Origin: Trichobilharzia szidati
Taxonomy: Eukaryota; Platyhelminthes; Trematoda; Strigeidida; Schistosomatidae
DNA length: 64,000 nt
Direction: 5' to 3'
NCBI GenBank assembly: GCA_944472155.2
Contig: OX235274.1
Coordinates: 36,330,052 to 36,394,051, forward strand
How positions within the stretch are numbered: the first letter of the stretch is position 1; each line of letters opens with the position of its first letter. The notes beneath the pieces were generated by a model, which did not search any database, had not been told where the DNA came from, and saw only the letters and a program-made list of their open reading frames with translations. This document shows, piece after piece, positions 20,040 to 51,575 of this stretch. The position numbers and the translations under genes are program-made.

Positions 20040-20255
20040 CATCATGAGCTGACATTGATTAGAGAACCACTGGAAAACCAACTGGGAGTACTGGACAGCT
20101 GTTTCGTCCTCAGCAATACGCACTCACCAGGGTCCAAGCAGAGGACCTTCTAGTTACAAGGAGGGCTGACGAAGAGTCCCAAACTAGGACGAAACAGCTG
20201 TCCAGTACTCCCAGGTTTTCCAAAGGTTCTTTAACCACTGTCAGCTCATGATGAA
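20040..20255. repeat. Head-to-head pair of hammerhead-type SINEs
   Basis: The left arm (20160 down to 20040, minus) has GGAC, GAAAC, then the family tail to catgagctgac. The right arm (20166-20255, plus) has the best preserved core in this subfamily: CTGACGA, AGA, GTCC, CAAACTA, GGAC, GAAAC, then AGCTGTC and tail. Relative to the classical schistosome hammerhead there are three extra bases (AGA) between CUGANGA and stem II. The arms are reverse complements over about 90 bases. Confidence 0.7.
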
Positions 20256-23159: not shown

Positions 23160-23515
23160 GGTAGATGGTGACTAGCAGTGGAATCCAGGATGTGCACTTC
23201 GTCCTATTTGGGACTCGTCATCTGCATTAGGCTCAAGCCCAGTGCCCGTAGTTTCAAACGCCAAGACGTTATCCACCAGAGCCTCTTGTGCAAAGGGTTA
23301 TATTGATCATTTAATTGAATTTGAGATTTTCCCGTCGATTGATTGAACCAAAAAGGTCGGGTCTCAGGTTGACACGTCGGCTTCCACCAGTTAAATTTAA
23401 TTAAATGCCCAGACGTCGTCGAAGCATCTGCACAAGAAGCCGACATGTCAACCTAAGACCGAGCACTTCGGTCCAATATCAATCGACGGGAAATCTAAAA
23501 TTGAATTAAATCAAT
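23160..23515 (-). repeat. Sm-alpha-like tRNA-headed repeat with hammerhead motif
   Basis: On the minus strand from 23300 there is an A-box-like GTGGATAACGTCTTGG, a B-box-like GGGCTTGAGCC, then at 23223-23166 GATGACGAGTCCC, AAATAGGACGAAG and CATCCTGGATTCCACTGC. The last block is that of the published schistosome Sm-alpha hammerhead (CUGAUGA, GUCC/GGAC stem II, GAAA, then UCCUGGAUUCC). Core C3 is A and GAAA is GAAG, so activity is doubtful. The outer part (23306-23390) is inverted at 23430-23515, and a further copy of that arm is at 25400-25515. Confidence 0.65.
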
Positions 23516-25536: not shown

Positions 25537-27155
25537 CATTCACATAGCTGTACAATCGCATTTATATATAATTATTTGTGTGTGTGTACATGAGGTTTGT
25601 CAAGTTTAGATAATTGATCAGGTAATACAAGAATGATCTAATATAGAAACAAGGTTAATCAGACAGCAACTAAAGTAAGATTGAGTTTCAACTTAGATCA
25701 GGGTAGCAACAGAGGTAATTACAGGCAGAGACTAAGTAGAAGTGAAATTGAGCAAATAAGTTGGATGACGTAACATAAATGACTAGAAATTGAGCGTTGT
25801 TCAAGTCAGTAACAGTGGTAGTGAGGTGTAGAAATTAAATCGGGTGGGGTAGAGAACAAGAAAGTTGAAGATGTAAAATATTACAATTGAGAAGACAAAA
25901 TAATGCTAATTAAGCGACAGAAAAACGGATTAGGTAAAATTTACTTACTACTTCTTACTCTGTGGACGACTTTGAAGTTTGTTTGCGGTGTAGCTTGGTG
26001 TCCGGATTCTATCAGATGTTCTAAGATGGAACTGCGGGGGCATCGATTTTCTCCTTTGTAAAACCATGTTGGTGTGCGTCGGTGGCATAGCGGTTAGGAT
26101 GCTCGCCGACCATGCACATGGTCCGGGGTTCGATTCCCGGCCGGCGCACTCCTTTACCTCGCTAAGCCAGAACTAAGAAAAAAAGCTGGTGAAGAGGAAA
26201 GGTTGGGCATGAGGCTAGCAACCTCATCCTGTAAAAATAAACACTGCTACAGAAACTTCAAGCCTCTAGCTTGAAACCCTATGTTCCACTGGGAACGTGA
26301 AGGAATTAAAAATAAAAATCATGTTGGTAAGTGTTCGGTGATACTTTTAGAAAGCGAGCGGTGGGTACGGCCGACATACCTGGCTCCACACGAGCGGGCG
26401 AATTAATAAATACACATTGATGAGGCCAGTAGCGGTAGCTTATCCTTCACGTTCACATGAATCATAGGTTTTGTGGAGAAGGTTGGTCGTAGTTCAGCTG
26501 CGAAGAAGGTCTTCTTAAGTGAGCGCGACAGTCAATTTTTTAGTGTTTCCGCAGATATATCTCCGTCGGGACGCTAAGCATGGGCGGCCGCCCAAAAAAG
26601 AAAATCGATGCCCCCGCAGTTCCATCTTAGAACATCTGATAGAATCCGGACACCAAGCTACACCGCAAAGAAACTTCAAAGTCTTCCACAGAGTTAGAAG
26701 TAATAAGTAAATTCTACCTAATCCTTTTTTCTGTCGCTTAATTAGCATTATTTTGTCTTCTCAATTGTAATATTTTACATCTTCAACTTTCTTGTTCTCT
26801 ACCCCACCCGATTTAATTTCTACACCTCACTACCACTGTTACTGACTTGAACAACGCTCAATTTCTAGTCATTTATGTTACGTCATCCAACTTATTTGCT
26901 CAATTTCACTTCTACTTAGTCTCTACCTGTAATTACCTCTGTTGCTACCCTGACCTAAGTTGAAACATTTTAGTCAATTATATTACGTCATCTAACTTAC
27001 TAACTCAATCTTACTTTAGTTGCTGTCTGATTAACTTCGTTTCTATATTAGATCATTCTTGTATTACCTGATCAATTATCTAAACTTGACAAACCTCATG
27101 TACACACACAAATAACTATATATAAATGCGATTGTACAGCTATATGAATGAATTC
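25537..27155. mobile_element. PLE 3' ends in inverted repeat, 1.6 kb fold-back
   Basis: The left arm (25537-26051) and right arm (26600-27153) are near-identical reverse complements over about 515 bases, apart from some 40 extra bases in the right arm near 26967. Each arm encodes the C-terminal end of a PLE endonuclease ORF. The right arm reads RCPRSSILEHLIESGHQ then NFKVFHRVRSNK and stops. The left arm (minus) has the same residues, and inward of it the GIY-YIG start (CGARYVGRTHRSLSKSITEH, minus 26400-26330). The SINE at 26074 splits the left arm's ORF between HLPTW and FYKGEN. Both copies lack the RT. Confidence 0.8.
26074..26319 (+). mobile_element. tRNA-headed SINE with 9-bp target duplication
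   Basis: This 246-base element starts GTGCGTCGGTGGCATAGCGG. Its first 75 bases have an A box (GTGGCATAGCGGTTAGG), a B box GGTTCGATTCC and a closing GGCGCAC that pairs with the first bases like an acceptor stem. The body contains a short hairpin around tcaagcctctagcttga, then the tail ccctatgttccactgggaac, and ends in an A-rich run. CATGTTGGT is duplicated at 26065-26073 and 26320-26328. It lies inside the left PLE arm, so it is younger than that PLE. Related copies are at 40405 (+) and 47774 (-). Confidence 0.9.
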
Positions 27156-40174: not shown

Positions 40175-40296
40175 GTCGGCGACCATACCACGTTGAAAGC
40201 ACCGATTCTCCTCCGATCACCGAAGTTAAGCAACGTTGGGCCCGGTTAGTACTTGCACGGGTGACCGGCTGGGAATACCGGGTGTTGCCGGCTTTT
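40175..40296 (+). rRNA. 5S rRNA sequence, part of a chimera
   Basis: The segment reads as a near-complete 5S rRNA. It starts GTCGGCGACCATACCACG, holds the conserved CCGATCACCGAAGTTAAGC and GGTTAGTACTTGCACGGGTG blocks (internal Pol III control region), and ends GGTGTTGCCGGCTTTT. First and last bases (GTCGGC with GCCGGC) pair as helix I. It is about 120 nt plus TTTT. It is a single copy with no 5S tandem array and is joined to U6 with no gap. It is better read as a retrotransposed copy than as a working gene, although the internal promoter looks intact. Confidence 0.85.
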
Positions 40297-40401
40297 GTAC
40301 TCGCTTCGGCGGTACATATACTAAAATTGGAACGATACGGAGAAGATTAGCATGGCCTCTGCGCAAGGATGACAAGCAAAATCGTGAAGCATTCCATATT
40401 T
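40297..40401 (+). ncRNA. U6 snRNA sequence, part of a chimera
   Basis: It starts with the U6 5' stem-loop (GTACTCGCTTCGGCGGTACA), continues TATACTAAAATTGGAACGATA, then the ACAGAGA-box region as ACGGAGAAGATTAGCATGG (consensus ACAGAGA altered to ACGGAGA), and ends GTGAAGCATTCCATATTT. All about 105 nt are present in order. The base before it is the last T of the 5S, so there is no room for the upstream Pol III promoter (PSE/TATA) that a real U6 gene needs. The changed ACAGAGA box also argues against a functional spliceosomal RNA. Confidence 0.88.
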
Positions 40402-40404
40402 ATG

Positions 40405-40634
40405 GTGCGTCGGTGGCATAGCCGTTAGGACGCTCGCTGACTATGCACATGGTCCGGGGTTCGATCTCCAGCCGACGCACTCCTTTACCTCGCTAAGCCA
40501 GAAATAATGCTGGTGAAGAGGAAAGGTTGAGCATGAGGCTAGCAACCCCATTCTGTAAAATAAGCACTGCTACAGAAACTTCAAGCCACTAGCTTGAAGC
40601 CCTATGTTCCACTGGGGAACGTGAAGGAAAAAAA
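40405..40634 (+). mobile_element. tRNA-headed SINE fused to 5S-U6
   Basis: This is the same SINE as at 26074. It starts GTGCGTCGGTGGCATAGCCG, has A box, B box GGTTCGATCTCC and closing GACGCAC (7-bp acceptor-like stem GTGCGTC/GACGCAC), the ctcgctaagccagaa block, and the tail ccctatgttccactgggg, ending in AAAAAAA. It is joined to the U6 3' end by ATG (40402-40404). The SINE 5' end is exactly the one defined by target duplications in the other copies, so the join is full-length to full-length. No clear target duplication is seen around 40175-40634. Confidence 0.88.
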
Positions 40635-42356: not shown

Positions 42357-43611
42357 TGAGTAACAGAACGGTTCAGACATCCACTTCCAAGTATTTGACG
42401 CAGGCTTATGGCGAGTTGTCATCTGAAGTGGTGACGACTAGTGGCGTCCGTCAAGGATGCCCATTATCCCCATTCCTATTCAACTTCATCATAGACGTAC
42501 TAATGGACTTAACCCTAACACACTTCAGACTCAGGGATTGACTTGCTACCAGGGAAGAATCTAGTCGACTTAGAATATGCAGACGATATAGTCCTTCTAG
42601 GCGAGGACGCTGACAAAATGCAGAGTCTACTGAACACTTTGAGCAACATTCTTCGTATGTTTGGCATGCGATTCGCCCCTGTAAAATGCAAGATGATGCT
42701 GCAGGATTGGACTTCACCGACCCCTAGATTAAAAATAGGAAGTGAAGTGGTAGAGAACGTTGACCACTTCACTTACTTGGGAAGTACCATCAGCCCCAAC
42801 GGGTTGATCTCAGACGAAATCTCAGCACGAATACAGAGGGCTAGTTTCGCATATGCCAGTTTACATCGTCTCTGGCGTAGACGTGATATCCGACTATCGA
42901 CCAAAGGGCGTGTGTACTGCTCATCAGTCCGCTCCGTCCTCCTTTAGGGCCAGCTGTGAAACCTGGGCATTGAGAGCGGAAGACATGAAAAGATTCGCTG
43001 TCTTCGATCATAGGTGTCTGCGTTCTATCTCCCGTGTGAAGTGGTATAATAAGGTGAGCAATATTGAGGTTAGGCTTTGGTCGAGTGCTAGGTAAGGAGG
43101 GGAAATCAATAGACGAGACTGTGAAATTACATCGACTGAGATGGTTAGGACATGTGTTACGTATGCCTAGTCATCGCCTTCCTCGACGGGCAATGTTAGC
43201 TGATATAGGGTCAGGCTGGAAAAGAGCTAGCGGCGGTTAAACCAAAACATGGCACCAGTCAATGAAATCCACAACAGTTAGTGTAAGTCAGCCACGTAGG
43301 AAGGTGAAGACTTCCTGGTTGGGGCCCTCGGGACGGTAAAAACCAATGGTTGGAAACAATTGGTGACATGACTCAAAGTCGTTCTCAGTGGCGCAGATGC
43401 ATCCACTCCTTGTGACTTATGATTTCCAATGAAACTTTTGTTCTTCGTTATTACTGTTCCTTTGTCTCACACCTCCGTTTACTGTCTCCAATATGCATTT
43501 CTCCTACTTTCTTCTTCTCTTGCTTTGTGTGCTACATGGAGTGTGGCGACTTGAACTGCCGCACATCAGTGCAAAGTTCTATGTCAAAAACCGACCGACC
43601 GACCGACCGAT
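42357..43611 (+). pseudogene. LINE-A, longest copy (RT core to 3' end)
   Basis: In order: QAYGELSSEVVTTSGVRQG and CPLSPFLFNFIIDVLMDLTL (42400-42510), a frameshift, then LVDLEYADDIVLLGEDADKM with the YADD active site (42560-42620), MRFAPVKCKM, FTYLGSTISPNGLISDEISA, LHRLWRRRDIRLSTKGRVYC, a stop, then RCLRSISRVKWYNKVSN, LRWLGHVLRMPSHRLP and the C-terminal region. It ends in the 3' UTR and (ACCG)n at 43588-43611. It is 5'-truncated just before motif B. At least two frameshifts and one stop are present. Confidence 0.85.
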
Positions 43612-46836: not shown

Positions 46837-48100
46837 TTTTCAACATAGAACTTTGCACCGATGTGAAGCAGTTGACGTCGCCACACTCCGTGTAGCACAC
46901 AAAGCAAGAGAACAAAGTAAAAAGGAATGCAAAACAGAGATAGTGAATAGAGATATGAGGCAAAAAGAATAGTAATATCGAAGAACAATAGTTTCACCGA
47001 AGATTATAAGTCACAAGGAGTGGACGCATCTGTGCCATTGAGAACGATCACTTTGAGCCATATCACCACCAATTGTCTCCAGCTATTGGTTTTTACCATC
47101 CCGAGGACCCCAACCAGGAAGTCTTTACCTTCCTAAGTGGCTTAAACTGACTGTTGTGGATTTCATTGACTGGTGCTATGTTTTGGTTTGACCACCGCCA
47201 GCTCTTTTCCAGCCTGACCCTATGTCAGAACTTATTTATCAAGTATTCGGCTATGTACTATACACTTACTGAGTCAGGGCTGATGACACTACCACCACCC
47301 AGTTGCCCACAGACTGAAGTAGGTGGACCAAGTTTGGGTCCGCAGAACCTATTGACCAAAATTAAGGCACTTGAGATAATGATCCACAATGAAGAAAAAA
47401 AGTACTTCATTTGATTGGACACTAGCATCTAGTTTTATGTGTCTAGCCCTCTCTTTGATGTAGACCGAATTCTATCAGTCAGGTTACTACATTACCTCCA
47501 TCCATCTAATATCATCAAATCAATATGCACCGTCAGCAATCAACCCACTGGCATTGACTGATGCAACTTCCCAAATAGGTGAAGTGGTCAACACGTTCCA
47601 TCATCACCTTCACTGCTGTCTATCTTTAAGCCTGAAGTCAATGTAGTTCAGCCCAGTCCTGTAGGAACATCTTACATTTCACGGGAGCGAGCCGCATGCC
47701 AAACATTCGAAGATTTCTTCTCAAGGTGTTTAAAAGACTCTGCGATTTGTCAGCTTCTTCACCTAGAAGGACTTTTTTTTCTTTTTATTCCTTCACGTCC
47801 CCAGTGGAACATAGGGCTTCAAGCTGGTGGCTTGAAGTTTCTGTAGCAGTGTTTATTTTCACAGGATGAGGTTGCTAGCCTCATGCCCAACTTTTCCTCT
47901 TTACCAGCTTTTTTATTTCTGGCTTAGCGAGGTAAAGGAGTGCGTCGATCGGCGATTGAACCCCGGACCATGTGCATGGTCGGCGAGCATCCTAACCGCT
48001 ATGCCACCGACTCAAGAAGGACTATATCATCTGCATATTCTAAGTCAACGAGATTATTTCCTGGTAGCAAGTCAATCCCTGAGTCGTCAACTGTCACCTT
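46837..48100 (-). pseudogene. LINE-A, minus strand, interrupted by a SINE
   Basis: The 3' UTR (46837-46930) and C-terminus (47170-47100: TKTWHQSMKSTTVSL-like) are at the left. RT pieces run to the right, with a MFGMRLAPVKCKMFLQDW-like block (47710-47640) and, beyond the SINE, LLPGNNLVDLEYADD (48075-48030). The LINE was cut by the SINE at 47774-48014 inside the YADD region. Internal sequence between 47225 and 47490 has drifted or been replaced. Confidence 0.75.
47774..48014 (-). mobile_element. tRNA-headed SINE inside LINE-A, 9-bp target duplication
   Basis: This is a minus-strand copy of the SINE at 26074. The tRNA-like head (GTCGGTGGCATAGCGGTTAGG and GGTTCAATCGCC) is at 48012-47940, the body follows, and the tail ccctatgttccactgggg and A-rich end are at 47822-47774. 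AGAAGGACT is duplicated at 47765-47773 and 48015-48023. The duplicated bases belong to the LINE-A RT region, proving insertion into that LINE. Confidence 0.9.
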
Positions 48101-50194: not shown

Positions 50195-51575
50195 ATTGCT
50201 GGATTCAGGAAAGGGTAACTATGCGCATCATCATCGCACAAAGCAGTCAAACGTTTATCTACCTCAACTTCATCGACTTCGAAAAGGCCTTCGACAGAAA
50301 GTGTTGACCGAGAAGTAATTTGGAAACACTATAGCGTGCTAGCGGCGGTCAAACCAAAACATGGCACCAGTCAATGAAATCCACAACACTTAGTCTAAGT
50401 CACGTAGGAAGGTGTAGACTTCCTGGTTGGGGTCCTCGGGACGGTAAAAACCAATGGTTGGAAACAATTGGTGACATGGCTCAAAATCGTTCTCAATGGC
50501 TGGCGCAGATGCATCCACTCCTTGTGACTTATGATTTCCAATTAAACGGTTTTGTTCTCCATTATTACTGTTCCTTTGTCTCACACCTCTGTTTACTGAC
50601 TATATTATGCATTTCTTCTACTTTGTTCTCTTGCTCTGTGTGCTACATGGAGGGAGTGTGGCGACTTGAACTGCCGCACATATGTGCAAAGTTCTATGTC
50701 GGAAACCGACCGACCGAGACTGGATTACGCAGAACACCGTAAGCAGGGAGCGAGAAGACAAGAATACGTTGGACCGATAAATAGACTCTACGACACATCT
50801 TAACTTTGCGGACGATTTATGTCTAATGGAAGATTTACAGGTGAAAACCAATAAACTGGCATTAGAGGCAGGCAGTGAAGTCAGGACTTCAAGTAAACCG
50901 AGAGAAGACGGAGGTGATGGAGATCACAACGACAACAACAACAAGCACTAGTCACTGTAGACGGGAGACAATTTGAAAGAGGTTACTTCCTTCATTGATC
51001 TCAACAGCACGATCTCAACCACAGGTGACTGCAGATGAAGATGTCAAAACCAGAATCAGAAAGGCAAGGCACACCTTCACCACTCAGAAATCTTCTGACG
51101 TCAGTCCGAGGAACAAGATTCGGATTTTAAACACCAATGTTAAGTCGATCAGTTCTTCTTTATGCGCCAGAAACTTGGCGTGTTACAAGAAGCATTTCCA
51201 ACAAGTCACAGACTTTTATCAACAGCTGCCTTCACTTCATATCGAAGATCATATGACTGGTCAGAAAGAATTACAAACAAGAAACTATGGGTGCGAACCA
51301 ATCAAGATCCTGTCACTCAATAAACATATCAAAGAAAAGAAAGATGCATCTGACACACGTTCAGGAGTCCGTCGAATGGCATCGCGTGCCAGACGAGTAG
51401 GGTTTCCGAGAGTGACATGGATGAGATCGTGTGAGAGGGAAATCAGAGACCATGGACAATCGTAGGACCAGCTAAAGAGGACTGTCTGGGACAGGACAAA
51501 GTGGAGGTGTGCTGTTGAAGCCCTATGTTCCAATCGGAACCCAAGGGAATGATTAAATAAATAATATACCCAAAG
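50195..51575 (+). pseudogene. RTE-type LINE, interrupted by LINE-A
   Basis: RT motif A FIDFEKAFDRK is at 50265-50300. The RT resumes after LINE-A at about 50723 with DWITQNTVSREREDKNTLDR, then a stop and LNFADDLCLM (FADD active site, 50800-50825). It continues through ERGYFLH.S-like, VTADEDVKTRIRKARHTF (51025-51080), CARNLACYKKHFQ and the C-terminus RVGFPRVTWMRSCEREI (51395-51450). It ends gaagccctatgttccaatcgg..cccaagggaatga at 51519-51560. Many frameshifts. Confidence 0.8.
50335..50722 (+). pseudogene. LINE-A 3' end nested in RTE
   Basis: Starts SGGQTKTWHQSMKSTTLSL (50343), then GRCRLPGWGPRDGKNQW and LETIGDMAQNRSQW, the 3' UTR and (ACCG)n at about 50706-50720. RTE coding sequence lies on both sides (FEKAFD before, DWIT after), so this 5'-truncated LINE-A inserted into the RTE RT gene. 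Confidence 0.8.

Follow-up and report, generated by a model that had tools for sequence, protein, structure and literature searches.

We analyzed a window of 64,000 nucleotides of the blood fluke Trichobilharzia szidati (contig OX235274.1 of assembly GCA_944472155.2) in which a complete 5S rRNA is followed, head to tail, by a complete U6 snRNA and then by a complete tRNA-headed SINE, all on the plus strand and together spanning 460 bases at positions 40175-40634 (Table 1). Rfam assigns the first part to RF00001 (40175-40293, plus strand, model positions 1-120 of 120, 103.1 bits, gathering threshold 38) and the second to RF00026 (40297-40403, plus strand, model positions 1-105 of 105, 104.8 bits, gathering threshold 44). 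At 40296/40297 the sequence reads ...GCCGGCTTTT|GTACTCG..., and across 40401/40405 it reads ...CATATTT-ATG-GTGCGTCGG..., with the SINE starting GTGCGTCGG at 40405. A preliminary description of the window, made from the letters alone, had proposed three full-length Pol III transcripts in this order, two exact joins and a SINE start set by target duplications of copies at 26074 and 48014. The full-model Rfam matches and the sequence at both seams bear out the first two points. The SINE start is likewise secure, because two ordinary copies in the window start at this point, give or take one base, and are flanked by target duplications of 13/14 and 9/9 bases; the minus-strand copy (48014-47783) matches the SINE of the unit from its nucleotide 2.

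Table 1. Parts of the three-part unit and ordinary SINE copies of the same family, in window coordinates
Feature	Position	Strand	Basis
5S rRNA copy, complete, including 3′ TTTT tail (40293-40296)	40175..40296	+	Rfam; comparison with array 5S
Seam 1: 5S ...GGCTTTT to U6 GTACTCG, no bases between	40296..40297	+	sequence
U6 snRNA copy, complete, ending CATATTT	40297..40401	+	Rfam; comparison with majority U6
Seam 2: ATG, three additional bases between U6 and SINE	40402..40404	+	sequence
Complete tRNA-headed SINE: tRNA-like head, RTE 5′-region-like body, RTE-like 3′ tail, poly A	40405..40634	+	
Ordinary SINE copy, same family, with target duplication; fixes SINE 5′ end	26074..26312	+	
Ordinary SINE copy, same family, with target duplication	47783..48014	-	

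The 3′ part of the unit combines A and B boxes with an RTE-like body and tail and belongs to a family with target duplications, as expected of a tRNA-RTE SINE. Read by eye against the consensuses, its A box is TGGCATAGCCG and its B box GGTTCGATCTC, the latter with one change; ARAGORN, run in its bacterial setting, called no tRNA within the window. The tRNA head ends in CTCCTTT and continues into RTE-like ACCTCGC. A long element joined to U6 in L076/L107 has the SINE tail TTGAAGCCCTATGTTCCACT at its own 3′ end (23 bases, 95.7%), and the SINE body aligns to the 5′ region of the same kind of element with a score of 62, compared with 14.5 +/- 5.5 (maximum 32) in 300 shuffles. This element, which we take to be an RTE on recognition of its protein and organization, has an RVT_1 domain (E 4e-26), an endonuclease match below the Pfam curated cut-off and a frame that breaks near the end of the reverse transcriptase part. 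Since both tail and body of the SINE resemble the 3′ end and 5′ region of RTE, an RTE-clade LINE is the likely source of the enzyme that mobilizes it. Three RTE-like 3′-end remnants with pieces of the SINE tail lie in the window itself, at 51515, 53610 and 56744.

The three parts have diverged to a similar extent (2.5, 4 and 3.5% for 5S, U6 and SINE). Relative to the tandem 5S genes, represented by 28 fetched array loci with one identical 5S, the 5S of the unit has changes at 3 of 122 sites (positions 31, 37 and 84); the U6 shows four changes from the majority U6 in its first 100 positions, and the SINE departs at 8 of 230 positions from the majority sequence of 29 copies. Across single loci, the divergence of U6 and that of the attached SINE are only weakly correlated (rho 0.34, p 0.16, n=18).

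To determine how often these joins occur, we searched the whole assembly (1.11 Gb, 907 contigs) with DNA queries, an exact seam pattern and a U6 covariance model, all of which can miss divergent copies; loci are designated L and contigs C below. With the 460-base unit as query, the window alone has all three parts among the best 40 of 6707 candidates (41 matches listed). At 18 further fetched loci from this search (L002-L018, L022) U6 is joined to the SINE. Of these 19 U6-SINE loci, window included, the 18 analyzed for the join (all but L017, whose U6 is 5′-truncated) have the SINE beginning at nucleotides 1-3. A further row of this search, C2:40332295 (L034), likewise contains the end of U6. 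The exact seam pattern gave 11 matches, eight of them U6, window included. The best 40 of 591 candidates for a 5S plus U6 query comprise the window, 37 array rows on C4, a solo 5S on C2 whose upstream sequence resembles that of the array (L072), and finally L043, where a 5S identical to the 28 fetched array loci is directly joined, end to end, to another SINE whose tRNA head is of the same kind. Among these candidates the 5S is thus seen in sense and complete at two chimeric loci, the window and L043. The 5S genes themselves form a tandem array of units of about 1.3 kb at about 119.06-119.12 Mb of C4 (L044-L071, L073, L074). Genomic linkage of 5S and U6 was considered as the source of seam 1 and discarded: array loci L044, L045, L073 and L074 carry 5S and have no U6 or SINE match.

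The two-part joins of U6 were surveyed through the covariance search, which contributed 48 copies, ranked by score as the best 48 of 117,794 first-look candidates. Together with L010 and L022 from the 460-base search, 50 U6 loci were read, and removal of nine flank duplicates left 41; two pairs with partial flank matches were kept as separate loci (L002/L091, which share an inverted SINE head, and L008/L015, which share a stretch at different distances from U6). The 39 independent loci that come from the U6-only search, window included, were assigned partners by BLAST against a small library and by eye. In 21 of these 39 the partner is a SINE with the window-type tRNA head, joined at its nucleotides 1-3 (among them L083, which matches the SINE in the head only, and L081, linked at its start via the L043 SINE), and in five it is an RTE joined at one fixed site (AACCTCGCC or one base off). 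Joins at the SINE start or at this one RTE site hence account for 26/39, and from its recurrence we infer that the fixed site is the true 5′ end of RTE. Three U6 copies are joined to internal RTE, one to a Penelope-like reverse transcriptase gene, one to an ITS-like pre-rRNA piece (L094), one to tRNA-like sequence (L092, which further down matches the same ITS-like piece over 47 bases) and five to sequence without an assigned name. The remaining two, L080 and L086, carry between U6 and the SINE start an element X, a 147-base stretch that is 85% alike in both and has no Rfam match; these U6-X-SINE loci are possibly another kind of three-part unit. At L098, the flank duplicate of L094, the ITS-like piece is followed by the first 67 nucleotides of 5.8S, and the join to the Penelope-like gene (L105), read by eye, connects U6 from nucleotide 20 to an internal part of that gene.

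U6 is 3′-complete in 39 of the 41 independent loci, begins within four bases of its 5′ start in 36 and is complete at both ends in 34, window included, counts that represent an upper view inflated by the score-ranked list; L017, L034 and L041 (the last with N upstream) hold a 3′ part only. A functional U6 gene was not recognized among the 50 loci read. The U6-SINE seams vary in T length and in added bases, with additional non-T bases in 7 of 18 loci by our own reading (e.g. ATG, GT, C, A, CA), and a T immediately precedes U6 at 17 of 29 loci, against a background of 33% (p 0.004). Three loci, L002 (at about 1418-1499), L091 and L101, have in the flank upstream of U6 an inverted SINE head that abuts U6 5′ end to 5′ end, which might be a product of twin priming.

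The preliminary description had asked whether several copies with the same junctions or a single one exist, and had suggested that the locus could have founded, or could belong to, a composite 5S-U6-tRNA SINE family. The answer is divided: two-part copies are many and each was made anew, and the three-part join turned up a single time in the best candidates scored (40 of 6707 and 40 of 591). A propagating composite, whether 5S-U6-tRNA or U6-tRNA, could account for the roughly two dozen U6-SINE joins seen, and a 5S with just 3/122 differences may retain a largely intact internal promoter. The SINE phylogeny argues against it. When the presence of U6 is mapped as a label onto a tree built from 44 SINE copies, 27 of which carry it, 14 changes are required, compared with a mean of 13.7 and a range of 9-17 in 500 shuffles, in a non-random sample in which 11 of the 17 copies lacking U6 were picked by likeness to the window and flank duplicates are included. 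This scatter of the U6 label indicates that U6 was captured repeatedly rather than inherited with a composite family. U6 variants common to loci outside the flank duplicates are dispersed across different partners and mark no subfamily, so label scatter and variants alike speak for an independent origin of each chimera. The seams, too, differ from locus to locus, U6 is joined also to RTE, pre-rRNA-like and Penelope-like sequence, and the terminator that seam 1 would contain is unfavorable to propagation. The best 40 candidates of each DNA search include no set of dispersed copies that agree in their seams and in diagnostic changes, and the SINE without 5S and U6 is the sole form seen as a family. 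Because just one three-part copy was seen and the U6 label is scattered, we reject the composite family, which we regard as highly improbable; the three-part chimera is rare and not a new element family.

Target duplications enclose several of these units. Flank repeats that bracket the whole U6-SINE unit with a score of at least 8 occur at 10 of 27 loci, compared with 7 of 702 mismatched flank pairs; the other 17 loci score below 8, and the 27 include duplicates and the window, whose row used flank inside the 5S. By eye, and as a reading that carries no control, L076 and L107 have AATTTGTATTC both before U6 and after the RTE 3′ tail. No target duplication was found around the window unit, where the flanks directly beside it score 3, nor around L043, with a flank score of 2, and neither 5S end is consequently tied to its insertion by a duplication. 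Two candidate pairs upstream of the window 5S (8/8 and 9/10 bases, starting 45 and 53 bases upstream) were dropped because the best score of this wider search, 8, is equalled by 11 of 30 random stretches.

The lack of a target duplication at the window, together with the existence of 5S genes elsewhere in the assembly, would be in line with separate events, that is, with successive insertions at one point or with an ordinary 5S or U6 gene that happens to abut a SINE. Such an origin is hard to reconcile with seams that are base-exact and end to end, with three similarly diverged parts and with the many similar joins of independent origin; moreover, genuine 5S genes lie in the C4 tandem array of 1.3-kb units, where their flanks are different, and the upstream sequence of the solo L072 is array-like. 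We therefore consider separate events very unlikely. Even less credit can be given to an assembly artefact: the locus is known from the assembly alone, but relatives with the same kinds of seam lie on several chromosome-size contigs and each part of the window copy has mutations of its own, which leaves this explanation with a negligible probability.

In the reading that we favor, and which we consider probable, the window unit is a single retrotransposition product that arose through two successive end-to-end template jumps by an RTE-clade reverse transcriptase. The first template would be a SINE RNA, entered at its 3′ tail and copied to its 5′ end. From there the enzyme would jump to the oligo-U at the 3′ terminus of a U6 RNA, copy the whole U6, and jump a second time, to the corresponding oligo-U of a 5S rRNA, which would be copied to its 5′ end before integration. 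All three parts would be complete because each jump leads from the 5′ terminus of one template to the 3′ terminus of the next. The enzyme, the order of the jumps, the unity of the event and jumping as opposed to RNA ligation all belong to this proposal and are argued from the directly joined transcripts, their similar divergence, the tail common to SINE and RTE and the independent two-part relatives, some of them with target duplications, the window unit itself being a single copy around which none was found. The 3′ end of a small RNA is joined in sense to a SINE at the window, and the suggestion of the preliminary description that a LINE reverse transcriptase made the chimera by template switching gains support from the large number of independent joins of U6 to SINE or RTE, several of which have duplications, and from the separate 5S-SINE join. 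End-to-end template jumping has been described for the R2 reverse transcriptase, where it needs untemplated addition; with balanced nucleotides mostly A is added, and an overhang of three or more is then unproductive (PMC8857657). By analogy, jumping of the R2 type would fit the full-length parts, the bases added at seams, the use of U-tailed RNAs as templates and the T before U6.

The main rival, to which we assign a low though appreciable probability, is that an RtcB-type activity in the cell first ligated the RNAs end to end and that the chimeric RNA was then reverse transcribed. Some RTE and R2 elements have ribozyme-cut 5′ ends, and if this holds for the RTE considered here, the resulting 5′-OH would suit ligation. 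The 5S-U6 and U6-SINE joins would be hard to make in the same manner without a 5′-OH, which neither primary Pol III transcripts nor capped U6 present. The complete U6 3′ end in 39/41 independent loci of the score-biased list is compatible with ligation, whereas the additional non-T bases between U6 and SINE in 7/18 loci, on our own reading, speak against it. Ligation is given beside template switching for human U6-LINE-1 chimeras in PMC13174262, and human work cited in PMC8857657 has LINE-1 chimeras ligated before reverse transcription.

As a unit, the product is probably silent and a dead end. The TTTT at seam 1 would act as a Pol III terminator that ends a 5S-driven transcript before U6, U6 has no internal promoter, and the tRNA boxes of the SINE would restart transcription at the SINE.

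The template-jump reading places the window unit among chimeras that are known from other genomes. Group IV retropseudogenes, as described in PMC4476161, include U6-L1, platypus U6-L2 and U6-Mon-1, and in a lizard three U6-RTEX-2 and six U6-AnolisSINE2 chimeras, and are made by LINEs of the L1, L2 and RTE clades. They resemble the present loci in that U6 lies 5′ of and in sense with the LINE or SINE, that many have target duplications and that template switching is the explanation given. By its anatomy and its relatives we liken the window copy, which lacks a duplication of its own, to Group IV; published chimeras of these kinds without target duplications exist (PMC4476161, PMC2104539). It differs from Group IV in coming from an RTE/SINE pair in another genome and in the second jump that adds 5S, and the U6 joins surveyed here fall at the SINE start or the fixed RTE site in 26 of 39 cases, whereas the LINEs of Group IV are usually 5′-truncated (PMC4476161). 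Tripartite chimeras attributed to double jumps are listed in PMC2104539: WEIRD-MgSINE-MGL in Magnaporthe, B2-U6-L1 in mouse and two in human. These share with the window unit the fusion of three transcripts and two jumps as explanation, as well as U6 in the mouse ones; a single insertion, as in these tripartites, is probable for the window unit. The window unit differs in having no LINE part, all its components being Pol III transcripts, complete, with 5S outermost. Target duplications of 14-16 bp accompany the Magnaporthe and mouse tripartites, and the two human ones have none (PMC2104539); none was found at the window. The 27 human 5S/LINE-1 chimeras described in PMC13174262, 20/27 of them with target duplications, likewise have 5S at the 5′ end of the insertion, though typically antisense and truncated, unlike the sense, complete 5S at the window and L043, where no duplication was found. 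In the Schistosoma mansoni assembly, 55 U6 sequences reduce to nine after collapsing identical flanks (PMC2770079).

Within the open-licence literature searched, no 5S-U6-SINE chimera and no flatworm U6 chimera was found. Dimeric SINE families exist. SINE families headed by 5S and by U1/U2 are also on record (PMC13174262). All of these combine a small-RNA head with a SINE body, like the window unit, which for its part shows no sign of amplification as a composite. Such chimeras and double jumps are thus already known, and the all-Pol III, all-complete composition was not found in the open-licence literature. What is added here is this composition, in one case with three complete Pol III transcripts strung together, and many parallel cases within one RTE/SINE system, which extend LINE template-switch chimeras to a system whose joins are mostly end to end, at the starts of the partners. 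A genome with dozens of such joins constitutes a natural experiment on the RNAs to which a non-LTR reverse transcriptase turns once its own template is copied, and equally on how SINEs acquire new heads.

We put forward tentatively, as a joint proposal that we regard as less likely than not to be correct in full, that the RTE enzyme, having run past the 5′ end of its template, prefers Pol III oligo-U 3′ ends as the next template, and that the window element records three jumps at different times, to a pre-tRNA, to U6 and to 5S. The basis of the preference would perhaps be untemplated A on the cDNA pairing with the U-tail. The first of these jumps, an old one, would be the founding join of the SINE between an internally deleted RTE and a pre-tRNA. 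If this is true, newborn SINEs are the rare survivors of a reaction that is still running and can be counted.

Several other features of the window were recorded. Rfam identifies two type I hammerhead ribozymes, at 20163-20208 on the plus strand (39.4 bits) and at 23183-23227 on the minus strand (50.4 bits), and type I hammerheads occur in flatworm SINE-like or Penelope-like elements. The Sm-alpha SINEs are named in PMC2770079. Between 29742 and 35488 on the minus strand lie two tandem copies of an element that we presume, on recognition of the family by eye, to be Penelope-like, in which a 201-aa and a 321-aa frame each occur twice, identical and 3581 bases apart. At 42765-42842 on the minus strand, Rfam gives a borderline match to mir-3492 (47.4 bits, cut-off 44).
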